DNA from: Candidatus Nezhaarchaeales archaeon
Lineage (GTDB): Archaea > Thermoproteota > Methanomethylicia > Nezhaarchaeales > JAWCJE01
Direction of reading: 5' to 3'
NCBI GenBank assembly: GCA_038853715.1
Contig: JAWCJE010000016.1
Location: 1-44,337 of the forward strand
Length of the DNA: 44,337 nt
Part shown: positions 13,988 to 25,098 of the stretch, piece by piece
Numbering within the stretch: the first letter of the stretch is position 1
Layout of the letters: the number at the start of each line of letters is the position of its first letter
Position numbers and translations under genes: made by a program
Notes under the pieces: model-generated
What the model saw: only the letters and a program-made list of their open reading frames with translations
Databases searched by the model: none
What the model was told of the DNA's origin: nothing

Positions 13988-14401
13988 GTGGTAGTAGGCT
14001 TGGCTAAGCTCGAACCGCTATCGTTCTATCCTGTAAAGGTGAGTAAGCTTGAACCTACAAAGATAGTAGGAGTTATACTCCTTAGCGCGGTGAGCGAAGA
14101 CGGTAGGGTTAAGGTTGAGCTAGAACTACCTAGGAAGGTGGCTGTGTTTAGTGAGGGCGACGTTATTGAGGTTACGCTGGATAATGCGGAAATAGAGAAT
14201 GGGCTTAGAAAGGATCTATACGTTAACGGCTTAATCTATAAGTTTAAACCTATTAATGATCAAACAACAATTTACCTTTCGATAGGCGGGCTACGCGCTA
14301 AGGTAACCATGCCGACTAGCTTAAACAAGTTTAAGTTAATGGAGAAAGCATACTTAGCAATGCATAAGGTAGATGCTTTAACGCTTAAACCTTCATCTTA
14401 G
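13988..14401 (+). CDS. rpoG: Probable RNA polymerase subunit Rpo8 (RpoG)
   Basis: This 137-residue beta-rich protein has an OB-fold-like pattern: KIVGVILLSAVSEDGRVKVE, FSEGDVIEVTLDNAE, LYVNGLIYKFK and a C-terminal IYLSIGGLRAKVTMP. The closing YxSIGGL strand is typical of the archaeal Rpb8 homologue, found in Crenarchaeota and Korarchaeota. Rpo8 would be a peripheral stabilising subunit of RNA polymerase. The assignment rests on pattern and length only. It starts with GTG; the Met-Ala-like start at LAKLEPLSF is an alternative. Confidence 0.6.
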   Translation: MVVGLAKLEPLSFYPVKVSKLEPTKIVGVILLSAVSEDGRVKVELELPRKVAVFSEGDVIEVTLDNAEIENGLRKDLYVNGLIYKFKPINDQTTIYLSIGGLRAKVTMPTSLNKFKLMEKAYLAMHKVDALTLKPSS

Positions 14402-14646
14402 CTGGTTAAAGCCATTGAACTATCCAGCGAGCCTAACGAGCTTCTTCAGGTTTATCTCACTTCTAGATCGAGTTCTTAAACGGCAACTAAGAGTGTTGAA
14501 CCCCATATGAACGTTGTCTTATTCTCAGCTAGCTTAAACCACCTTCAACCACCCCTCTTCCTCCACCACGTATCCTTCTCATTTACCTAAGGACAGATGA
14601 ACTAGGGCGTTATCCTCTTCCTTTAGCGCGTATTCTGTTAGCTCAA
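14402..14646. other. Intergenic region upstream of the TFB operon
   Basis: No intact gene. On the minus strand a stop-broken stretch reads ELTEYALKEEDNALVHLSLG and then EGYVVEEEGWLKVV, which is protein-like and may be a dead gene, but it is too short to classify. With the promoter segment 14647-14700 the gap totals 308 bp. Confidence 0.3.
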
Positions 14647-14700
14647 AACCTTAATAAGTGAGGGGTGAGGGGGGCCCGCGCCCGTTAAGGGAGGGGGGCC
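14647..14700 (+). promoter_or_regulatory. Putative promoter/operator of the TFB-pilus operon
   Basis: A TATA-like ACCTTAATAAG (14648-14658) is followed by two direct GGGGGGCC repeats (14669-14676 and 14693-14700) that flank the expected start of transcription, 10 bp before the TFB ATG. Such long G-runs are not seen elsewhere in the window outside the eL40 leader. They could be an operator or a structured leader; that is inference. Confidence 0.4.
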
Positions 14701-14709
14701 ACTTATAAC

Positions 14710-15693
14710 ATGGGAGGTAAGTGTGAATGTGGTGGGCGAATAGTGTTAAACTCGAGCGACGAACTAGTATGTAGGGCGTGTGGTTTAGTTATATCCCCGG
14801 TCCATTACGTGCCACCCTTAATACCTTTTAAGGCTGAGCCGAGGAATAGTCCTAGGGTGCTTCAGCATGGAGCGATAATACCTACACCCTATGGTTCAAC
14901 TTGCTCTACTACGAGTGTTGGAAGCCTTTATGATGCGAAAAGTAAGCCGCTGGATACCGTTAAAAGGTTAATATTCTCTAGGTTATCACGTCTTCATAGG
15001 CTACACTCCTTCTCAAAGTCAACGGCGACTAGTTTACGCGCTCTTTACACATTAAGGAGGGTGTGCTCCCTCCTCGGAGTTAGCGAGGCAACGTATACTC
15101 ACGCCAGCTACTTGGTTATGAAGATGCTTCGTAGCGGGATGAAGGCCGATCTCACTAGTTATGCTATTGTGGGCGCGTGTATAATAATTGCTAGCCGCCG
15201 CTTTGATCCTTTGAAGCCCGTAACTGTTAGAAGCGTTACTAGATTGATGCGGCAGCTTGGCCATAAGAGTGTTAGTAAGAATAGCGTGCTACGTTCCTTA
15301 TTCCTAATTAGGAGGCTTACCGGGATTATTCAAGTAGCGAGGCCAGAAAATTATTTATCTTTCATATGCTCAAAGGTCGCTGGTTTAAGTAGTGTGAGAG
15401 CTGAGCTAAAGTTAATCGGGGTAAAACCCGAGGAGTATATGCAGCGTCTTTTAAGCGTTAGTAAGCTCGTCTTAAGTAGGATTCCGCCTACACGTAGAGG
15501 GGGACGTGACCCCTTCGTACTCTCGGCATCCGCGGTTTACGCTGCTGATAGGCTTCTCGCGGTAAAAGCAAACCGAGCGCCCCTTTTAACCCAAAGCCTA
15601 CTAGGTCAGCAGCTAGGTATAGCTGTCTATACGCTGCGTGATCACTTCACGATGTTAGTGAAACCGGTACTCCATCAAATGGGAAAGGAGTGA
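14710..15693 (+). CDS. tfb: Divergent transcription factor B (TFB/TFIIB) paralogue
   Basis: This 327-residue protein has an N-terminal zinc ribbon with CxC...CxxC (C5, C7, C21, C24; CECGGRIVLNSSDELVCRAC), a B-reader/linker region rich in Pro and Thr, and two cyclin-like repeats. The first is at about 100-205 (TATSLRALYTLRRVCSLLG, DLTSYAIVGACIIIASRR). The second is at about 212-320 (ENYLSFICSKVAGL, DPFVLSASAVYAADRLLAV). TFB recruits RNA polymerase to TATA/TBP. This copy is divergent: the CxC spacing and linker are unusual for the main TFB. Its stop overlaps the next gene, so it is co-transcribed with a pilus/secretion gene set. A dedicated regulator like Sulfolobus TFB3 is my inference. Confidence 0.85.
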   Translation: MGGKCECGGRIVLNSSDELVCRACGLVISPVHYVPPLIPFKAEPRNSPRVLQHGAIIPTPYGSTCSTTSVGSLYDAKSKPLDTVKRLIFSRLSRLHRLHSFSKSTATSLRALYTLRRVCSLLGVSEATYTHASYLVMKMLRSGMKADLTSYAIVGACIIIASRRFDPLKPVTVRSVTRLMRQLGHKSVSKNSVLRSLFLIRRLTGIIQVARPENYLSFICSKVAGLSSVRAELKLIGVKPEEYMQRLLSVSKLVLSRIPPTRRGGRDPFVLSASAVYAADRLLAVKANRAPLLTQSLLGQQLGIAVYTLRDHFTMLVKPVLHQMGKE

Positions 15694-15992
15694 TCTATTA
15701 TTTGATATTCAAGCGGAGCTCGGAGCCGATGTTGAAGGAGTTGGATAAGCTTAGGCTTGGGTTGGAGTTGACTCGTGAAACGCTTGAAGGACTTAAGGGG
15801 AAGTTTCACGTAGTTAATGAATGTTTAGACGCTATAAAAACGCTTAACGAACGTATTCAGAAGCTTGAAGCTAAAAGCCTAACAATCAATGATCTGGAGC
15901 GCCTTCGCTTCTACGCTCGTCTCGTTTCAAGAATAGAGGTTAAGCTCATGAGGTTTGGTGGTGATCATTATATCGGTAAAGAAGAGCATTGA
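15690..15992 (+). CDS. Small coiled-coil protein 1 of the TFB-pilus operon
   Basis: GTG at 15690 overlaps the TFB stop by 4 bp; ATG at 15729 (MLKELDKLRLGLEL) is an alternative start. The 87-100 residue product is a single long amphipathic helix or coiled coil (LRLGLELTRETLEGLKGKF, AIKTLNERIQKLEAKSL, LERLRFYARLVSRIEVKL). No family is recognised. Its position between TFB and the secretion ATPase suggests a structural or regulatory partner of the machine. Confidence 0.6.
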   Translation: MIYYLIFKRSSEPMLKELDKLRLGLELTRETLEGLKGKFHVVNECLDAIKTLNERIQKLEAKSLTINDLERLRFYARLVSRIEVKLMRFGGDHYIGKEEH

Positions 15993-16401
15993 AGAGGTGG
16001 TTGAAGCCCTCCTTAAGGAGGGTGTGAGACCTGAGGCTGTTAAAAGATCTTTAATCAACTTAGGCTTTGATAGGGAGCAGGTGGAAAAGGTGTTAACTAG
16101 CGTAGCCGTATCACCGTCAACCGTAGAGCCTGAGTATCGGCTTATTAACGATGAGTTAAAGAGGCAAAAGTTGTCTTTAGAGGAGCTTAGAAAGGAGTTC
16201 ACTAAAATAAAGGATCTTGTGAACACCTTCATAAATAGAATTGAACTGCTGGAGAAGGAAATTAGTCAAGCTGCCACTTCGAGGTTAACTACGTTAGAAG
16301 CGAGGTTTAACGCCTTAATCGATGCGTTAATCGATTACGCCCCATACCTCTTTGAGGATTCTAGGTTAAAGAGGATGCCGACGTTAGTAAAGCAGGAGTA
16401 A
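15955..16401 (+). CDS. Small coiled-coil protein 2 of the TFB-pilus operon
   Basis: The frame opens at TTG 15955 (GTG 15958/15961 also possible), overlapping the previous gene by up to 38 bp. The 148-residue product has an N-terminal helical hairpin that looks like a UBA/winged domain (IEEVVEALLKEGVRPEAVKR, SLINLGFDREQVEKVLTSV). A coiled coil follows (YRLINDELKRQKLSLEELRK, TFINRIELLEKEIS), with a C-terminal ARFNALIDALIDYAPYLF segment. No family is recognised. It ends 9 bp before the secretion ATPase start, so the genes are clearly one operon. Confidence 0.65.
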   Translation: MVVIIISVKKSIEEVVEALLKEGVRPEAVKRSLINLGFDREQVEKVLTSVAVSPSTVEPEYRLINDELKRQKLSLEELRKEFTKIKDLVNTFINRIELLEKEISQAATSRLTTLEARFNALIDALIDYAPYLFEDSRLKRMPTLVKQE

Positions 16402-16410
16402 GTAAACGGC

Positions 16411-18576
16411 ATGGCCAAGTGTAAGTTAAAATGTTCCTTCCGGTTGAAGAGGAAGCCCTCCGAAGCTTTAGGGGCTATAATTACCTGTTCAAGCCCTTCG
16501 GAAGATGCTGGCAATATAGCTTTAAATCCTTCATGCAGAGCTGAAGCTATTTGCCACCTCACGTTAATAGGCCGACCCATAAACTTCTTCGATATTCAAA
16601 CACCTTATTGGATGTATAGCTATAAGAGCGAAACCATTAAAACGTTAGTTGAATACGCTTCCTCTTTAAGTAGGATAAAGTACGAAGTGTTAAACTACGT
16701 TAAATGCCTCCATGGTTTACAGGGCTGTAGTAATGCTCAAACCTCCTTCTTCGTAAAGATGTTCAGCCTATACCCATATCCGGGGCTTATCTACACGGAC
16801 CCTGTAGGGGCTTTCTTAAAAGTTGTTGAGGAGGAGCTTAAAGCTAGGCTCCTAAGGCCTGGGGAGGCCCTATGTGGAAGCTGCCTTAAAGCTTACCGCG
16901 AGGGGCTTAAGAAGCTTAAGAAAACCCTGGCGAAAACCACTCTTATCCGTGGATGGTTAAACGATAGGTCGCAGCAGTATTATGAGTTATGCTTCCGTTT
17001 TTCTAAAACGGCCAGGAGGCATGCTTTAAGCGACGTTAAGCGGATGGCGTTACCCCCGGATTGGAGGGTACTTGAAGAATACCTCGTACCACCCTTCAAG
17101 GTGAAGGTTCTTCAGGCGACGACTTCTGATGAAGTTTTTTACTTCGTTAAAAACCCATTAAGAGATTGGCGCTTAAAGTATATCATAAATGATGCAGTGA
17201 GGGTGTTAAATAGAAAACTTCGAACCTCATTCTCTATCGAGAACTATAGCTTAGATTCCGTCATTTCATGTAGGAAGGCTGAAGCGTTAAACTTGCTTCG
17301 CCCTATGTTAGTCCAAAGGGGGCTTAAGGACTACACGTTGGAGGAGCTTGCCGCCTTAGCTAGTTATAAGTCCGTGGGGCTAATGAAGCTGATGCCGTTC
17401 TTACTTGACGATAACGTTGAGGAGTTCTTCCTCGATAAGCCTTCATCGTACGTATACCTAGACTTAAGGAGGTGGGGGCGGGCTAGAAGCAATATTTCCC
17501 TCACCGAGGGCGAAGTTAATCGGGTAGTAACGCATATTAAGAGCGAATCGGGCTTCCCACTCGATTATGAGAACCCCTCTCTTAAAAGTGAAGTGATTAC
17601 GAAGGATTTTCACGTACGCGTTTCGATAGATATAAGCCCGCTAGCAGTTGATGGCGTAACCTTAGACTTTAGGAAGCTTAAAAGTAGATCCTTCTTAACC
17701 ATAGTGGATCTCGTCAGAAACGGTACGCTAACGGTAATGGCTGCCTCGTACATCGTTTTTAATTTACTGAAAAAGCGAAGCATACTTATCTACGGCGAGC
17801 CAGGGTCTGGCAAAACTACGCTTATGAATGCTCTCGACTTAATATTACCTGCCTCGGTTAGGAAGGTTTACTGCGAAGACGTCATTGAAACCATTCCGCA
17901 GATTGACGAATTTGGAAGGCATCAACTCAGGTATCACGTTGACCCCCTTGAAGCGTTAAGGGAGGGCACTAGTAAACAATTTGAAGTTTTAAAGACGTTA
18001 CATCGAGCTCCCGACTACTTAATACTAGGCGAGGTCCAGCATAAGCTCCATTCTCAAGCTCTATTTCAAGGTCTTTCAGCAGGTTTAAGGGTTTTAGCTA
18101 CAACGCATTCTTCAACAGCCGAACAGCTGATGTCGAGGTTCATATTCCACCACGAAATACCGATTACCTGCCTCTACGATCTAGATCTTCTAGTACAAAT
18201 GAAGAGGCTGCCGTTAAGCTCCGCTAACCAAAGGAGGCTTGTAAGGATAGTCGAGGTGGAGCCACGGCCCCCTAACGTGGTGTCGCTCTCCTTAAACACC
18301 GTAAAACTTGTAGATGTATTCCTATGGGATCCTTCGGGGCGTTTAAGAGCATGCATAGATCTATACGACGCACCATCTATAAGGAAGATAGCCGCCTTTG
18401 AGCCTTTAAACCGTAAATCTTTTAATGACGTTATATCGAGCGTTGCTTCAACTATTGAAGAGTTGATCGGAAAGGACGTAGGAATACGTGATGTTTTAAG
18501 TGCTTTCGAACGGCTTTACGCTGAACACTTCATGTACGTTACGCCAAGGCAGGAGGTGGTTAAGGTTAAGGGCTAA
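16411..18576 (+). CDS. Type II/IV secretion (GspE/FlaI/VirB11-like) ATPase with Cys-rich N-terminus
   Basis: This 721-residue protein has a C-terminal ATPase core with Walker A GEPGSGKTTLMNAL at about 462-475, an Asp-box region (YCEDVIETIPQIDEFGRHQL), Walker B-like YLILGEVQH, and the His-box ATTHSSTAEQLMSR. The domain is preceded by the PilT/GspE N-domain (DDNVEEFFLDKPSSYVYLDL). It would power a type IV pilus or related filament at the cytoplasmic face of the membrane. Unusual Cys pairs in the first about 170 residues (CKLKC, CRAEAIC, CLHGLQGC, CGSC) could bind zinc. Two TadC-like membrane genes follow. Its end overlaps the next frame if that gene starts at 18500. Confidence 0.9.
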   Translation: MAKCKLKCSFRLKRKPSEALGAIITCSSPSEDAGNIALNPSCRAEAICHLTLIGRPINFFDIQTPYWMYSYKSETIKTLVEYASSLSRIKYEVLNYVKCLHGLQGCSNAQTSFFVKMFSLYPYPGLIYTDPVGAFLKVVEEELKARLLRPGEALCGSCLKAYREGLKKLKKTLAKTTLIRGWLNDRSQQYYELCFRFSKTARRHALSDVKRMALPPDWRVLEEYLVPPFKVKVLQATTSDEVFYFVKNPLRDWRLKYIINDAVRVLNRKLRTSFSIENYSLDSVISCRKAEALNLLRPMLVQRGLKDYTLEELAALASYKSVGLMKLMPFLLDDNVEEFFLDKPSSYVYLDLRRWGRARSNISLTEGEVNRVVTHIKSESGFPLDYENPSLKSEVITKDFHVRVSIDISPLAVDGVTLDFRKLKSRSFLTIVDLVRNGTLTVMAASYIVFNLLKKRSILIYGEPGSGKTTLMNALDLILPASVRKVYCEDVIETIPQIDEFGRHQLRYHVDPLEALREGTSKQFEVLKTLHRAPDYLILGEVQHKLHSQALFQGLSAGLRVLATTHSSTAEQLMSRFIFHHEIPITCLYDLDLLVQMKRLPLSSANQRRLVRIVEVEPRPPNVVSLSLNTVKLVDVFLWDPSGRLRACIDLYDAPSIRKIAAFEPLNRKSFNDVISSVASTIEELIGKDVGIRDVLSAFERLYAEHFMYVTPRQEVVKVKG

Positions 18577-19351
18577 ACTTACTAACTTAGTATTTAACGA
18601 GTATAGACGGGTGCTACCCCAATCATACTTAGAGAGGCTAACGGTAAAAGCTAAAGCGTTTAAGGATGCTCGTAACGCTCTAAAACTATCATGCGTCTTG
18701 GCCCCCATTGTTTTTACGTGTGCCTTCATCCTATCCAAGGACGTGATTGTCTCAATTATTTGCGCGGCTATCTTCACCTACGCTTACCTTAAGGTTAAGG
18801 CGTTCAGCTTTTTAAGGAAAGTTGAATATGAATCTTCATTAGTCGATAGCTACGCGGCCATCGTGCTTGAGGAGTTACGATTAGTATTAAGTACCTCGGG
18901 TTCACTGTTTCAAGCTTTAACCTTTGTTTCTAACGGCGACTACCCTTTAATCTCGAAGGCGTTTAAACGCGTACTTAACCTAGCCCAGGAAGGAATTAGT
19001 TTAACAGTAGCCCTTTCTAAGCTTGCCAAGGAGCAAACCTCAGAGACAATGAGAAAGGGGTTATGGTTACTGATAACGGGTAGTAGGAAGCATGGGCTTA
19101 GCGAGCGTATTTGGGATTTATCAGCGCTTCAATCTGAAGCACGTAATCGCTTTACTCTATACATGAAGCATACGCATAACTCGCTTTTAGTATTAATTCC
19201 GTTAGCCTTCCTCCTCCCTCCCTCCATGGTGCTCGCGTTAACCATTAAACGCTTCACCTTACTAATACTGCCATTACTAATCCCGATGCACCTCATACTA
19301 CTCACGCTAACCATTAAGCTTCTATCAAGAAGGGTGGCGCCTCCCCTATGA
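18500..19351 (+). CDS. TadC/GspF-like membrane platform protein, first copy
   Basis: A frame of 283 codons starts at GTG 18500, overlapping the ATPase gene by 77 bp. A later GTG near 18611 (VLPQSYLERL) is an alternative, so the start is uncertain. Paired N-terminal hydrophobic helices (ALKLSCVLAPIVFTCAFIL, VSIICAAIFTYAYLKV) are followed by a cytosolic GspF/TadC domain (LEELRLVLSTSGSLFQAL, AQEGISLTVALSKLAKE, GSRKHGLSERIWDLSALQ). Two C-terminal helices follow (LLVLIPLAFLLPPSMVLAL, FTLLILPLLIPMHLILLTL). This is the inner-membrane platform partner of the ATPase. It overlaps the next gene by 4 bp (ATGA). Confidence 0.82.
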   Translation: MLSNGFTLNTSCTLRQGRRWLRLRAKLTNLVFNEYRRVLPQSYLERLTVKAKAFKDARNALKLSCVLAPIVFTCAFILSKDVIVSIICAAIFTYAYLKVKAFSFLRKVEYESSLVDSYAAIVLEELRLVLSTSGSLFQALTFVSNGDYPLISKAFKRVLNLAQEGISLTVALSKLAKEQTSETMRKGLWLLITGSRKHGLSERIWDLSALQSEARNRFTLYMKHTHNSLLVLIPLAFLLPPSMVLALTIKRFTLLILPLLIPMHLILLTLTIKLLSRRVAPPL

Positions 19352-20193
19352 AGCCCTTGAAGAAGGTTGAAGCCACCTGCTTAGCGTTAAGCGTGTTAAT
19401 AAATGCCTCCTTACTTATAGCCGCCGTCAAGTTAATGCATGACATTACGGTCTTGGTAGCCTTTACTGCGGCTTCCACATTAACGGTTTACCTAGCATTA
19501 CTCCAAGCTTACAGGTGTACGGTTACTAAACGCTTCACTATAACGTCTGAGGTTAAGGAGTTGGAAAACTTCCTATTACTATGGGGGGAGTTTATGAGTA
19601 GAGGGGAGAACCCTGAAGCAAGCTTAATGAGGGCGTTAAGTAAGTATGAGGGGCCCTTAAAGGGCTTAATGGAGGACTTAGCCGCTACGATCGTTGAAGC
19701 TGGGGTCCCCGTAAAGCAAGCCTTAAGCTCGCTAAGGTATAAGTTAAGCGAGAAGCAATCCCATCGATTAATACTGTTGGTGCAGCGCTTAATAGAACAT
19801 AGTACTCAAAGGGCTGGTAAACGCATAGTTGATTTAATACTTTCACTACGTGAAAATAGGCAACTACGTGAAAGCTTGGAACAGGTTATAAGGGCCGAGG
19901 CGTTTAAAGTTAAGCTGTTATGTGTATTAAGTGGCTGTCTTCTAGCGGTTTTCGCGTATGCATCATCGATTTTGGCAGCCTTAAGCGCCTCCTCCACCTC
20001 CATCATGGAAGGAGGGTTAAGCGCGGAGTTAAGTACTATACGGTTTTCATATTATACGGCTTTCTTCGCCTTCACGATATACCCGCCCACTCTAGTAGCA
20101 CTATTTATGGGTGAAGCTAAGCCATACGCCTACTCGTTAATGTGCGCCCTCGCCTACATATTTACTGCGCTATTGACCAGCCTTCTCCGGTGA
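19348..20193 (+). CDS. TadC/GspF-like membrane platform protein, second copy
   Basis: This 281-residue protein starts at ATG inside the stop of the first platform gene. Layout is the same as the first: two N-terminal helices (CLALSVLINASLLIAAVKLM, VLVAFTAASTLTVYLALLQA), then the cytosolic domain (LLWGEFMSRGENPEASLMRAL, VEAGVPVKQALSSLRYKLSE), then C-terminal helices (VLSGCLLAVFAYASSILAAL, YTAFFAFTIYPPTLVALFM). Tandem TadC-like subunits, as in TadB/TadC of bacterial Tad systems, indicate a two-subunit platform. It is the last gene of the contiguous TFB string, before the pilin. Confidence 0.82.
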   Translation: MKPLKKVEATCLALSVLINASLLIAAVKLMHDITVLVAFTAASTLTVYLALLQAYRCTVTKRFTITSEVKELENFLLLWGEFMSRGENPEASLMRALSKYEGPLKGLMEDLAATIVEAGVPVKQALSSLRYKLSEKQSHRLILLVQRLIEHSTQRAGKRIVDLILSLRENRQLRESLEQVIRAEAFKVKLLCVLSGCLLAVFAYASSILAALSASSTSIMEGGLSAELSTIRFSYYTAFFAFTIYPPTLVALFMGEAKPYAYSLMCALAYIFTALLTSLLR

Positions 20194-20215
20194 ATGTACA
20201 CTATGGATTAAGGGG

Positions 20216-20224
20216 GATAAATAG
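20216..20224 (+). promoter_or_regulatory. TATA-like box before the pilin gene
   Basis: GATAAATAG at 20216-20224 lies about 27-36 bp upstream of the pilin start codons (20245/20251/20254). A separate promoter would let the pilin be made in excess over the assembly proteins; that is inference. Confidence 0.4.
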
Positions 20225-20244
20225 CCCTTTGAAAAGTTAATACG

Positions 20245-20496
20245 GTGGTAATGATGCTACACTCCGTTAAGCGGTTACTGAGGAATAGGAAAGCTGGACC
20301 GTTAATTGAGGAGGGGATGCTTTTAGGGATCAGCATCGTTACGTTAACAGTAATAATCTCGGTGATCTACGGCCTTCTAGGGAGTGTTGGAGACGCGATG
20401 ACTAAGATGGAAAGCAGCTTCGGAGACTTCTGGGGGACCGCCCTATCGAAAATGCATGAGGTAGCTAATAACCTAAGGCAAGCTTTACACGTATAG
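20245..20496 (+). CDS. Small type IV pilin / Flp-like prepilin
   Basis: This short protein (83 residues from GTG 20245; 80 from ATG 20254) has the class III signal arrangement. A basic leader (SVKRLLRNRKAG) is followed by a Gly cleavage site and then PLIEEGMLLGISIVTLTV, with Glu at mature positions 4 and 5 ahead of one long hydrophobic helix. The C-terminal part (GDAMTKMESSFGDFWGTALS) is amphipathic, with no Cys. A PibD/EppA-type prepilin peptidase should cleave after Gly. Glu5 of the mature pilin is the classic assembly residue. It lies between the platform genes and the HerA ATPase. Single-helix size resembles Flp/Tad pilins. Confidence 0.75.
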   Translation: MVMMLHSVKRLLRNRKAGPLIEEGMLLGISIVTLTVIISVIYGLLGSVGDAMTKMESSFGDFWGTALSKMHEVANNLRQALHV

Positions 20497-20665
20497 CCTG
20501 AGGGGTAATGGAGTCCGGTAAAACATCGCTTGTTAAGAAGATAACTACTAGGTTAATACGTGAGCGGATGACGAACCCTGCTTAGGGGTCCTAGGGGAGG
20601 GGTAAAATGCCGTTCGGGAATGTAGCCTTAAGGCTACCCTGATAAACGGTGATTACACGCCGCTA
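20497..20665. other. Gap with two very short frames before the HerA-like gene
   Basis: A 25-codon frame (ATG 20509, MESGKTSLVKKITTRLIRER) and an 11-codon frame (ATG 20607, MPFGNVALRLP) are present; both are too short to assign. GGGGAGGGGTAAAATG at about 20594-20609 is a strong ribosome-binding site with a start codon, so the 11-codon frame may be a leader peptide. No stronger start for the HerA-like gene than TTG 20666 is seen in its frame. Confidence 0.3.
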
Positions 20666-22417
20666 TTGATACTTGCGCTCTTTATAGTCCTCGTAGCCGC
20701 CTTCATCAAGAGGACGCTAGCAACCCTCGATCCTACCGTTCTACTATCACCCATCCTGTTCATAGCTTTAACGGCTATAGCCGCTTACATCGCGTTTATT
20801 GCTTACCCGAGGGGTTCAGTTCTTCTCGGTTTTTCAAGGCTTTTACCGGTATGGATTAAACTCAAAGGCTCGGAAGGCTCTCGACACGTAGTGGTACTGG
20901 GCGTTACGGGAAGCGGGAAAACAGAGACCGTTAAACGGTTGATCAGCGGTAGGCAAAGCGTATTAGTCTTGGATTGGGCTGGCGAGTATACTATTTTCCC
21001 GGTTGTTAAGCCTGAAGAGTTGAGTTTAGCAGGGCTAACTGTTGAGGAGATAGTTGAGGCGATAGGTAACGCCTTCCAGCTTACGACGCCTCAAACGGGC
21101 TTCCTATACAACATATTGAAGAACGTAAACGTCGCCAACCTGAAGGTCGTCGTGGAGAGGCTTCAAAGTCTTCCAGAGGCATCTTTAAGCGCGTCGGAAC
21201 GCGAGATAAGGGCCGCCTTGCTTAGGCGTTTAACGCCTTGTGAGCGCCTATTCGGAGGATCTACACCCTTAAACGTTGGGAGGGTGAATCTAAGCCACCT
21301 AACTCATGACGGTAAAGTATTAACGCTTAACGTAGCGTTAAGGATAATATATGACTTAGCTCGTAGGCGTGAGTTACAGGCAGAGGTAGTGGTAATAGAG
21401 GAGGCGCAGAACGTTATACCGGCTAAGCGTGAAGGCCCTCCAAGTAGTGGCGAACTACTATTACAGGAGATGCGTAAGTACGGTATCTCAGTGGTTCTTT
21501 CAGCGCAACTTCCGGCGACGCTTAGCGAATACTTCAGGGACGCTGAATATGTCATAGTTCACCGGTTACTGATGAATAGTGACGAGGTTAGGAACTTCGC
21601 CACCATCCTAGACGAGGACGACTTCCAACGTCTCTCTAGGGCTAAGACTGGTGAAGCGTTAGTACTTCACCGGGGCGAAAAACTGTGGGTAAGGGTGCTT
21701 AAGGCTAGGCAAACCAAGCGGAAGCAACCAGAAATAGCACCCGAGGTGAAGCAAGCGGAGGTTGAGGAGGGCGTGAAAAGGGCTGAGTTCGAAGCTAAGC
21801 TCTTCGAAGTCGCGAAGGGGCTTGAAGGACTTTCGGAGCTTGTTAAAGAGCTTAGTGACAGCGTTGAGAAGCTTACGAAGAGGGCTGAAGACCTAGAGGT
21901 ATTCAAGGAGGGCTTAGAGAAAATCATGAGGGGGAGAGTAGAGAATAAGCTTGATCTTAACGAGTTCAAGGATCGGGTTGAGAAGACGTTGAACATCGTT
22001 AGCTCGGAGCTTCCAAGCGCTTTTAACAAGTTAAAAGAGTTAACCTCCAAGGTTGAGGTCTTAGAGGGTGAAATTGCCACCGTTAAGGGCGTGTATGATG
22101 AGCTTTCGGAGCAGGTGAAGGCAATCTTAACCGCCCTTAACGTACTTAAGGGGGGCCTTAAGCGTATAAAACCTAAGAAACCCCTAACGAGTATGGGCGC
22201 TGAGGCTGTTGAAAACGAGTTAAGAAAGGTTGTTCCGGCGTTGCTTAGGGATCCACCAACGCTAAGCGTAGCCGATATGGGGGATCGCATAGTGATCTCC
22301 CCGGCGAGGTACATCGACGATGAGAGCTTTAAGGCGGTTACGGAGGTCGTTAAAGGCTTTGGCGGGAGGGTTGAGCGCGACGATCGGGGGTTCTTCTGGG
22401 CCATACCGAAGAGGTAA
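20666..22417 (+). CDS. Membrane-anchored HerA/VirB4-like ATPase with coiled-coil C-terminus (CedB-like)
   Basis: This 583-residue protein has two N-terminal transmembrane helices (residues about 2-13 and 28-46: LALFIVLVAAFI, PILFIALTAIAAYIAFIAY). A HerA/FtsK-type ATPase domain follows, with Walker A GVTGSGKTETV (79-89) and Walker B EVVVIEEAQNVIP (about 239-251), then LSAQLPATLSEYF and ILDEDDFQRL. Residues about 350-510 are a long coiled coil (EKLTKRAEDLEVFKEGLEKI), and a small alpha/beta C-terminal domain ends the protein. Membrane anchoring plus HerA/VirB4 core matches CedB of the Sulfolobus DNA import system better than cytosolic HerA-NurA. No nurA is adjacent. A TTG start is required. Confidence 0.8.
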   Translation: MILALFIVLVAAFIKRTLATLDPTVLLSPILFIALTAIAAYIAFIAYPRGSVLLGFSRLLPVWIKLKGSEGSRHVVVLGVTGSGKTETVKRLISGRQSVLVLDWAGEYTIFPVVKPEELSLAGLTVEEIVEAIGNAFQLTTPQTGFLYNILKNVNVANLKVVVERLQSLPEASLSASEREIRAALLRRLTPCERLFGGSTPLNVGRVNLSHLTHDGKVLTLNVALRIIYDLARRRELQAEVVVIEEAQNVIPAKREGPPSSGELLLQEMRKYGISVVLSAQLPATLSEYFRDAEYVIVHRLLMNSDEVRNFATILDEDDFQRLSRAKTGEALVLHRGEKLWVRVLKARQTKRKQPEIAPEVKQAEVEEGVKRAEFEAKLFEVAKGLEGLSELVKELSDSVEKLTKRAEDLEVFKEGLEKIMRGRVENKLDLNEFKDRVEKTLNIVSSELPSAFNKLKELTSKVEVLEGEIATVKGVYDELSEQVKAILTALNVLKGGLKRIKPKKPLTSMGAEAVENELRKVVPALLRDPPTLSVADMGDRIVISPARYIDDESFKAVTEVVKGFGGRVERDDRGFFWAIPKR

Positions 22418-22433
22418 AGGGCCCGCATAACCC

Positions 22434-22504
22434 ACGCGGAGTAGCCTCGGGTTCCCGCATCCGTAACCATGGCGTCCTCTCAAGCTATCCTGAGGCTACG
22501 CGGA
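22434..22504. repeat. Inverted repeat in the herA-helicase gap
   Basis: GTAGCCTC (22441-22448) pairs with GAGGCTAC (22492-22499), and ACGCGGA is repeated directly at 22434-22440 and 22498-22504. The structure begins 17 bp after the HerA stop and lies just ahead of the helicase start. It could be a terminator-like or translational control hairpin. Confidence 0.4.
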
Positions 22505-22516
22505 TAGGGGTTAAGC

Positions 22517-24307
22517 TTGGAAGGTTCTCCTTGGGAGAAGGTTTCGAGCGATAAGCCTTGGGTATTCTTCTTCCCTTACGATGTGGCTAGACGCGGTCAA
22601 GTGCTGTTCGCGGATACCGTTTACAACGCTATTCAACGGGGGATCAGCGTTATCATTAATGCTCCGAGTGGCTTCGGTAAGACGGTAGCGGCCCTCGCCG
22701 CTCTTCTCCCCTTCGTTAAGGGGGGTAGGCGGGTAATATGGGCGGCTAGGACGCATAGGGAGGCGGAAAGGGTTATTGAAGAGCTAAAGCTCATTAACGC
22801 CAAGTACAGCGCAGACGTCAACGCCGTGGCGGTGAGGGGGCGTGTTGAAATGTGCCCGCTTATATCTAGCGGATACGATAACGATGACGCCGCCTTCTAC
22901 TGTCGCGAGACACGTGCAGTAAGAGGCTGCCAGTATTATAAGCGGTTTCTAGAGTTTAAGGCTCCGGAAAGATGGTGTATGACTGGCGGAGAGGTGTATA
23001 GTTACGCGTTAAGCTTTAACGCTTGTCCATACTTTGTTCAGCGTTCCTTAGTTAGGCAAAGCCAAGTGGTAGCGATGAGCTACCAGTTGGCTTTTCAAGG
23101 AATTCAAACGTACCTTAAGGAGGTTGAGGCGTCCACCGCCGTTATGGTGGTGGATGAAGTACATAACCTCCCGGAGTTACTAAGGAGCATTACCAGCGAT
23201 CGATTAACGCTTAGGAGTATTGAGGGGGCGGCTAAGGAGGCAGAAGGTAAACCGATGCTTCAACGCTTCTGCCACGCCTTAATGGAGGTCGTTAAGGGTT
23301 ACGGCGACCATGAACAGCTTGTCACGTTTGATGAACTATCGTTAAGGCTTAAGGCTGAGGGTGCTCCTCGAATACCGTTAAGTATGGTAGCTGAGGTTGC
23401 AGTATTTGAAGGGAATCTAGTGCGTAAAGCCCTCCTTATGGAGGGGAAGAGGCCTAAGAGTAGCCTACACTCCCTCGGGCTCTTCTTGAAGCTGATTACT
23501 TCGGGTAGGTATACCTTGATTGTTGGCGGGGGCGTTCTTCAAGCCTTGAAGCTTGAGGTTGTAAGGCCTGAGGCTGACATCATAGGCTTTAGTGCAACTG
23601 CCGATGCACAGCTCGCGGAGGAGTTGAACTTGGAGTACATCGATTTATCCGTAGCCCCGACGCCGAGTGCTGAGGTATTTTGCTTAAATGATGTGACGAC
23701 AGCGTATGAAGAACGTGAACCTAATTACAAAAAGTACGTGGAATGGTTAAAGCTAATGCCGAAGCGAACGGGGATTTTTGCGGCATCCTTTAAAGTGTTA
23801 AATGGCCTCCTTAACGCTGGCGTCGGATCAGCGCTTTCACCGCTCTTTGTGGAGCGGGAGGGGATGACGAGTAGAGAAAACGAGGAGCTTTTAAGGGGTT
23901 TCAAGGAGGTCGCTGGATACTATTTAGGAGTACTCGGTGGACGAACCGCTGAAGGTGTAGACTTTCCAGGGCTTATACGAATAGTGTTCATAGTTGGAGT
24001 ACCGTTCGAGGAGCCATCGGTAAGGCTGGAGGCCCTTATACGGTACTATAGAGAACTCTACGGTGATGAAAGGAGGGCTAAGTTGACGGCGTACGTAATG
24101 CCGGCCGTTCGGAAAGTAGTTCAAGCGGCTGGGAGGGCGTTCAGAAGCCCTGAGGATCGAGGTATAGTGGTATTGGGGGATAAGCGCTTTGTAACATTAA
24201 AACGCTTGCTACCACGCTGGTTGAAGAGCTTTAAACAGATAAACTACGAAGAAAGACAAAAGCTGGCAGTGACTATAGAAGAAGTATTGAAGATAAAGAG
24301 TCTTTAG
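22517..24307 (+). CDS. XPD/DinG-type SF2 DNA helicase with Fe-S cysteines
   Basis: This 596-residue protein has motif I APSGFGKTVAAL (49-60), motif II VVDEVHNLPELL (DEVH, about 214-225), GFSATAD (motif III region), GGRTAEGVDFPGLIR (motif V) and QAAGRAFRSPEDRG (motif VI). Between motifs I and II are Cys113, Cys129, Cys138, Cys154 and Cys170, enough for the four-Cys [4Fe-4S] cluster of the XPD family. Such enzymes unwind DNA 5' to 3'. Length fits archaeal XPD, but the sequence looks divergent from canonical XPD and may be a specialised paralogue. It follows the HerA-like gene by 100 bp on the same strand, with a TTG start at 22517. Confidence 0.85.
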   Translation: MEGSPWEKVSSDKPWVFFFPYDVARRGQVLFADTVYNAIQRGISVIINAPSGFGKTVAALAALLPFVKGGRRVIWAARTHREAERVIEELKLINAKYSADVNAVAVRGRVEMCPLISSGYDNDDAAFYCRETRAVRGCQYYKRFLEFKAPERWCMTGGEVYSYALSFNACPYFVQRSLVRQSQVVAMSYQLAFQGIQTYLKEVEASTAVMVVDEVHNLPELLRSITSDRLTLRSIEGAAKEAEGKPMLQRFCHALMEVVKGYGDHEQLVTFDELSLRLKAEGAPRIPLSMVAEVAVFEGNLVRKALLMEGKRPKSSLHSLGLFLKLITSGRYTLIVGGGVLQALKLEVVRPEADIIGFSATADAQLAEELNLEYIDLSVAPTPSAEVFCLNDVTTAYEEREPNYKKYVEWLKLMPKRTGIFAASFKVLNGLLNAGVGSALSPLFVEREGMTSRENEELLRGFKEVAGYYLGVLGGRTAEGVDFPGLIRIVFIVGVPFEEPSVRLEALIRYYRELYGDERRAKLTAYVMPAVRKVVQAAGRAFRSPEDRGIVVLGDKRFVTLKRLLPRWLKSFKQINYEERQKLAVTIEEVLKIKSL

Positions 24308-24345: not shown

Positions 24346-25098
24346 GTGAGCCGTCGGCGTCCTGATACTACGGCTCGCGACGAAGTTTATGCTAAGCGCC
24401 TACCTAAACGTATTTTTAATAGTAAACCTCGCTTAGAAATTGGACGGAGGTTCGGATTGGCTAAAGCCTTAATAATTACGGGTACTCCAGGTACTGGTAA
24501 GAGCTCCTTAGCACGCGCGCTTTCAGATAGGTTAAAGTTACAATTTATCGACGTGGGGGACTTAGTGGAGAAAGAGCACCTATATAGCCGAGTTGGTCCT
24601 TGGCGTTCTAAAATAGTTAAAACTAGCCGTCTTAAAGCTAGGCTTAATGAGTTGGTTTCAACGTCTAGCGTTGACGTAATCGTGGAGACCCATATTTTAC
24701 CAGTACTTCCTAAAGAGTTGGTTAAAGCAGTCATTGTGCTTAGAACAAACCCTATTGAGTTAGTTAATAGGCTTCGTAGCTTAGGTTGGGATGAAGGAAA
24801 GGTTAAAGAAAACGTTTTAGCCGAGCTTCTCGATTATTGTTTATCACGTGCCATTAAATTTTACGGGAAGAAAAAAGTTTGGGAGGTTGATACGAGTAAT
24901 AAAAATCCGAAGCGTGTACTCGAAGAAGTTCTAAAAATCATAGATGGTAAGGTTAAACGTAAACGTGCACCTATAGACTGGATCGAGAAGGTACCTAGTG
25001 AGCTTATATTATCCATAACCGAAGACGTTAAGCATGGTTCGATGGAGAGGGAAGGTTTATTTACGCGGTATGGCCCAGCCACTTCAACATCCTTTTAG
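24346..25098 (+). CDS. Fap7/hCINAP-type adenylate kinase
   Basis: P-loop [19 protein letters not shown] leads into [17 protein letters not shown] and the NMP-binding region ([33 protein letters not shown] type), typical of the archaeal adenylate kinase related to Fap7, which acts in small ribosomal subunit maturation. The likely start is TTG 24457 (LAKALIITG), giving 214 residues. The frame from GTG 24346 adds 37 residues of non-homologous basic sequence. A C-terminal extension ([20 protein letters not shown]) exceeds the usual about 180 residues. The 3' end overlaps the convergent histone gene by 38 bp. Confidence 0.85.

Follow-up and report, generated by a model that had tools for sequence, protein, structure and literature searches.

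A conserved archaeal locus joining a small type IV pilus and a CedD-type ATPase to its own TFB, with a probable role in DNA exchange

Introduction

What might a type IV pilus (T4P), a HerA-superfamily ATPase, a helicase and a transcription factor B (TFB) do together when they are encoded in one block? It is in Sulfolobales that DNA exchange following DNA damage was worked out; there the pilus, the import ATPases and TFB3 are scattered. Such genes lie side by side at positions 14710–24307 of contig JAWCJE010000016.1 (44,337 nucleotides, analysed whole and called the window below) from the Candidatus Nezhaarchaeales archaeon assembly GCA_038853715.1, in which it is contig C16 of a genome of 1.55 Mb that is 95% complete. 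Our preferred reading, to which we give a probability of roughly 0.6, is that the block is a long-standing, vertically inherited locus of the phylum, in which a small T4P and a CedD-type DNA translocase would act under a dedicated TFB in DNA exchange after damage. In what follows, G, f and L labels denote genomes, families and loci, respectively; the window's genome is G000 and its family f1.

Results

Gene order and conservation of the locus

The block comprises genes for the TFB, two small coiled-coil proteins (CC1 and CC2), a GspE-type ATPase, the platform proteins TadC1 and TadC2, a prepilin, the HerA-type ATPase and an iron-sulfur (Fe-S) XPD paralog, in this order and all on the forward strand, with neighbours overlapping or 9–169 nt apart (Table 1). 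Every gene listed in an earlier sequence-only reading of this DNA was present and co-oriented; that reading had set the start at 14640, whereas the TFB gene begins at 14710, and RpoG at 13988 counts as part of the neighbourhood.

The same gene order from RpoG onward was found in G001 and G003 (f2), and this repetition of the full order places the arrangement beyond chance. The core TFB-GspE-TadC1-TadC2-pilin recurred throughout the class and also in further classes of the phylum, with a HerA-type ATPase directly after it in 13 families. In f6 and f9 this ATPase has ~600 aa and transmembrane (TM) helices, XPD is missing, and divergent one-TM open reading frames (ORFs) resemble minor pilins; loci of other classes are laid out likewise (f14, f15, f25, f33, f36, f37, f45, f47 and f51), and the f36 locus includes an A24 peptidase gene. 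This class-wide and wider repetition bears out the earlier proposal in that the TFB, the pilus machine and the HerA-type ATPase are conserved as a unit. Among class genomes at least 70% complete, pilus GspE and ATPase were both present in 29, both absent from 6 and never found singly (Fisher 6e-7), a count that ignores shared ancestry and whose six double absences fall in two families.

Pilus genes standing without the HerA and helicase genes, which the sequence-only reading had named as speaking against a unit, were found in part: f3, f4 and f8 have the core without the adjacency, and both genes are kept together elsewhere in these genomes. The pilus ATPase of f13, f49 and f52 has no adjoining HerA-type gene. 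At L158 and L164 of f49, the slot after the pilin is occupied by unrelated proteins of 356–378 aa and ~130 aa. A scan of genome contigs gave one match, a short Sifarchaeum (Asgard) contig (L115) with GspE-TadC1-TadC2 and no HerA gene before the contig end.

These loci bear on another reading, which we hold to be unlikely: the pilus, being of the Epd/Tad kind, would serve adhesion or biofilm formation, and its HerA-type neighbour would have a separate repair role and be held there by the conserved housekeeping neighbourhood. A split platform and a short pilin are likewise found in Epd/Tad, with a known role in attachment (PMC6668835), the ATPase does not adjoin the pilus genes in f3, f4, f8 and f13, and this pilus is missing from Sulfolobaceae and related families, which keep CedD; the adjacency in 13 families, the joint presence and absence in the class and the kinship of the ATPase to CedD argue against it.

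The block is a stable, vertically kept chromosomal locus between RpoG and AK6. It is followed in the window by AK6, histone, S17e, MoaD-like, ABCE1 and FBPase genes (the last three named by sequence resemblance only). AK6 was the right-hand neighbour at most loci compared, and RpoG likewise neighbours the locus in f2, f3, f8 and f9 and lies beside CedD-type genes in f43, f24 and f53. Because the flanks are syntenic housekeeping genes, the idea of a mobile island, and the word "island" used in the sequence-only reading, were dropped. Archaeal mobile elements commonly carry HerA-superfamily pumps (PMC4158269), and HerA-type and XPD-type motors might process and export DNA in a conjugation-like exporter of such an element; with housekeeping synteny in every family, and no integrase or relaxase seen near the locus, we regard this as very improbable.

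Kinship of the HerA-superfamily ATPase to CedD

CedD (NF053655) was the top curated NCBIfam match of the window ATPase (82.7 bits) and of its relative at L075 (197 bits), both scores lying under the curated cut-off of 600 bits; the same proteins scored 31.8 and 74.6 bits against HerA, and CedB gave 19.8 bits in the window. The half of the protein before Walker A aligned with CedD for 96% in f6, 88% in f14 and 82% in f47, whereas the N-terminal halves of relatives reached at most 3.3% with HerA and 25% with CedB. In the tree, all pilus- and XPD-linked ATPases fell into a single clade, distinct from canonical HerA (100/100); the window ATPase grouped with the XPD-linked ATPases of f3, f4 and f8 (100/100).

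A predicted model (mean predicted local distance difference test 70) showed two N-terminal TM helices, the ATPase, no N-terminal domain (NTD) and a long coiled coil; its matches among solved structures were HerA and VirB4. The relatives in f6, f14 and f47 have both the TM hairpin and the CedD NTD, and the window protein has the hairpin without the NTD. From its sequence, the window ATPase is identified as a derived form of a CedD-type ATPase. The sequence-only reading had called it CedB-like, a label that was replaced since CedD fits better, and membrane-anchored, which agrees with the hairpin in the window and fails in G001 and G003, the other two full-block genomes. Canonical HerA and HerA-NurA identities were rejected on the higher CedD scores, the N-terminal comparison and the location of canonical HerA-NurA pairs elsewhere in the genome (L166, L168), so that kinship to cytosolic pairs, the outcome feared for the earlier proposal, did not appear.

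A second, shortened CedD-type copy of 237 aa, 62% identical, lies at G000:C21:24018-24707 (L031:9913-10626, minus strand), adjoined by a 110-aa ORF of coiled-coil look. At L154, L155 and L159 the CedD-type gene is apparently split into two ORFs, one for the TM region and one for the ATPase.

A neighbourhood shared with cedD and tfb3

Family f27 exceeds the CedD and CedB cut-offs, as does Sulfolobus acidocaldarius, and from these shared matches it follows that the phylum, presumably Thermoproteota of the TACK group, holds Sulfolobaceae. In three f27 genomes cedD adjoins a thermosome gene, with S17e, the MoaD-like gene, FBPase and ABCE1 close in most; beyond the thermosome gene, on the side away from cedD, two of the three encode a TFB of 195–199 aa. 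Families f11, f20, f43, f24 and f53 have a CedD-type gene whose neighbours are an RpoG-type gene and/or AK6 and thermosome. The published gene numbers SiRe_1717 for Tfb3 (PMC10470591) and SiRe_1715 for CedD, which is required for DNA import (PMC11868833), agree with this arrangement, and the window block shares genes of TFB3's thermosome-cedD neighbourhood. Our literature search found no report of a cedD/tfb3 neighbourhood link or of a pilus-CedD locus.

Since the same block occupies the same chromosomal spot in many relatives, and TFB3 and CedD of Sulfolobus lie there, pilus-linked exchange of DNA in response to DNA damage may date back further and occur in more lineages than is known so far. 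A further step, which we take only tentatively, is that the ancestral locus of the phylum was a DNA exchange machine made of a damage-induced pilus and a CedD-type pump under a full-length alternative TFB, and that tfb3 and cedD of Sulfolobales are remnants left after loss of the pilus and its replacement by Ups.

The pilus machine and other transfer components

As the sequence-only reading described, the locus encodes a GspE-type ATPase, two TadC-like platform proteins and a short prepilin. Together with an A24 peptidase encoded elsewhere in the genome (G000:C13:8937), these predicted products make up the set by which archaeal T4P loci are recognised. The long-form GspE family occurs class-wide and beyond. 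In its N-terminal region (window 16411-16900), cysteines C4, C8, C42, C106, C155 and C158 were conserved across three genomes, a possible metal site that is reminiscent of the Thermoproteales 4D ATPases. The TadC2 profile matched 65% to the C-terminal platform protein of another T4P in the same genome, and its f2 ortholog gave T2SSF 18.9 bits, below cut-off. Alignment of 23 pilins gave the motif [RK]x[AG]S[PQ]L[VIL]EEG across relatives, the window version being KAGPLIEEG. No ORF for a TadZ/FlaH secondary ATPase was present within the window block. Two further T4P loci occur in the genome, at G000:C14 (L032) and G000:C7 (L033), one with a split and one with a fused TadC platform.

ComEC was not found in the 16 genomes tested, and another pump would therefore be needed if the pilus brought free DNA to the cell for the ATPase to pull in, as in transformation. 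The presence of GspE, platform, pilin and DNA translocase in a single locus is compatible with such uptake; no retraction ATPase or DNA-receptor pilin was identified, however, and CedD acts in cell-to-cell exchange (PMC11868833), which makes uptake of free DNA quite improbable. For a VirB6/CedA-like protein elsewhere in the genome, a search the sequence-only reading had proposed, PF04610 (TrbL/VirB6) gave nothing over cut-off, a model that equally misses Sulfolobaceae genomes.

The TFB and its promoter

The TFB scored 22.9 bits against Pfam TFIIB, just under the cut-off of 23.6, and the best Foldseek matches of its AlphaFold model were TFIIB. It retains the Zn ribbon, two cyclin repeats (seen in sequence and model) and the C-terminal helix-turn-helix (HTH), and lacks the PEWRAF reader motif present in the genome's two general TFBs. 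Almost every family examined had it linked to pilus genes. The earlier comparison to TFB3 thus stood as to a divergent extra TFB, whereas the TFB3-type truncation is missing. The two coiled-coil proteins described after it were both found.

For 26 pilus TFB genes, the preceding 180 nt were compared with 223 intergenic controls. ACTTTC was the most enriched hexamer, occurring in 16 of the 26 (0 in reverse) and in 14 controls (Fisher 6.7e-11). A(N)TTTC, the hexamer of the Sulfolobus DNA-damage response, which is bound by Orc1-2 (PMC9738581) and required by ups promoters (PMC5817253), was present in 23 of the 26 (13 of 16 families) and in 52 controls; maxima over 1000 dinucleotide shuffles were 10 for ACTTTC and 17 for A(N)TTTC. 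The element usually lies 40–170 nt before the predicted start, often farther than in Sulfolobus. The window carries a one-mismatch form (Table 1), the third best forward match in 44 kb to the relatives' matrix and a weak candidate for the counterpart of the damage element.

The XPD-type helicase

Four Fe-S cysteines (C113, C129, C138 and C170) were invariant in 12 sequences, helicase motifs were present, and the Rad3 score of 168 bits exceeded that for DinG (62); a canonical XPD is encoded elsewhere in the genome. Because the HerA-XPD pair is kept in f1, f2, f3, f4 and f8, the two proteins likely work together. The pair stands beside pilus genes only in f1/f2, where the helicase gene is a local addition; the sequence-only reading was right about the Fe-S helicase gene, and its membership of the core was rejected. 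The XPD tree did not separate whether block and paired XPDs form one clade. In another family (f34, L207), a CedD-type ATPase lies ~2.5 kb from an XPD-like helicase.

Table 1 Features of the locus and its anchors in the window.
Feature	Position	Strand	Basis
RpoG/Rpb8 RNA polymerase subunit, conserved left anchor of the slot	13988..14401	+	PF16992 36.5 bits, cut-off 27
ACCTTC, one-mismatch form of A(N)TTTC, then C/T-rich stretch seen in f3	14541..14546	+	matrix from relatives
Divergent full-length TFB: Zn ribbon, two cyclin repeats	14710..15693	+	Pfam TFIIB, AlphaFold model, linkage to pilus genes
CC1, small coiled-coil protein	15690..15992	+	small coiled-coil-like ORFs at equivalent place in f47, f51, f45
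CC2, small protein, helical N-terminus and coiled coil	15955..16401	+	conserved in f2, f3, f47, f51, f45, f49
GspE/VirB11-superfamily pilus assembly ATPase, long Cys-containing N-terminal region	16411..18576	+	PF00437 43.7 bits
TadC1, single-T2SSF platform protein	18500..19351	+	PF00482 at cut-off, 25.2 bits
TadC2, second platform half	19348..20193	+	no Pfam match; profile comparison
Small prepilin, class III-type signal KAG/PLIEEG	20245..20496	+	alignment of 23 pilins
CedD-type HerA-superfamily ATPase, N-terminal TM hairpin, NTD lost, long C-terminal coiled coil	20666..22417	+	
Fe-S XPD/Rad3-type helicase, second paralog in genome	22517..24307	+	
AK6-like nucleotide kinase, conserved right anchor	24346..25098	+	PF13238 73.5 bits

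Discussion

We propose that DNA damage would switch on the TFB gene, through A(N)TTTC in relatives, and that the TFB would drive the operon. GspE with TadC1 and TadC2 would then build a thin pilus of PLxEEG pilin bringing cells together, and the CedD-type ATPase would move DNA across the membrane for recombinational repair, to which the XPD-type helicase, in the window's gene order, might add strand separation. DNA as cargo, the direction of transport and damage induction are suggested here by analogy with CedD and TFB3 in Sulfolobales.

Several results weigh against this proposal, besides the dependence of the co-occurrence count on ancestry. The ATPase tree is too weak at its base to make Sulfolobaceae CedD the sister of the pilus-linked ATPases; the CedD NTD is lost in the window, and f2 members also lack the TM helices. 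CedB gave no match at E 1e-10 in 15 class genomes, and the locus has no CedA/VirB6 channel, as the sequence-only reading had remarked. G224 (f49) and G249 (f52) carry the pilus ATPase with no CedD match at E 1e-35. Exact A(N)TTTC does not occur in the window TFB promoter, nor is it enriched in the relatives' divergent GspE/minor-pilin promoters. The compact relative of ups/ced/TFB3 first suggested therefore survives in outline, with a conserved unit, a Ced-type ATPase, the cedD-TFB3 neighbourhood and A(N)TTTC in relatives; its details changed, the ATPase being CedD rather than CedB, the TFB full-length, the helicase outside the core and the exact motif missing from the window.

If the locus does the same job as in Sulfolobales, the response would date back much further and extend to many uncultured lineages, it would become clear where TFB3 and CedD came from, and a concrete gene set could be tested. 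TFIIB homologs were already noted in many T4P loci by Makarova et al. in 2016 (PMC4858521), and a DNA-handling role would then also be likely for a kind of T4P whose link to a TFB had been recorded there without a function.

Comparison with known systems

Like Epd/Tad pili, the locus combines a short pilin with two platform proteins of one domain each; unlike them, it lacks a TadZ/FlaH gene and adds the TFB and CedD-type ATPase. Thermoproteales T4P subclade 4D (PMC4858521) similarly combines a Cys-N-terminal ATPase, a short membrane protein, a TFIIB homolog and RPB8, whereas 4D loci lack a pilin, their TFIIB has one cyclin repeat, and a HerA/CedD gene is not mentioned for them in that study. 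With the Ups pili of Sulfolobales it would share a T4P tied to DNA exchange under an alternative TFB; it differs in its split platform, single small pilin, long Cys-containing ATPase and lack of UpsX (for which no model was run), and ups does not adjoin ced genes in Sulfolobus. TFB3 of Sulfolobales is likewise an extra TFB in the cedD neighbourhood, and most relatives of the window have A(N)TTTC upstream; TFB3 lacks the second cyclin repeat, whereas the pilus TFB has both and the HTH. Compared with CedD of the Sulfolobales Ced system (SiRe_1715; NF053655), the window-type ATPase scores under 600 bits, lies downstream of T4P genes in a class without CedB in the genomes tested and, in the window, has lost the NTD and carries a long coiled coil. 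Both are HerA-superfamily ATPases, the relatives of the window protein also share the TM helices and a matching N-terminal domain with CedD, and the two have a common neighbourhood of thermosome, RpoG/AK6, S17e and TFB genes.

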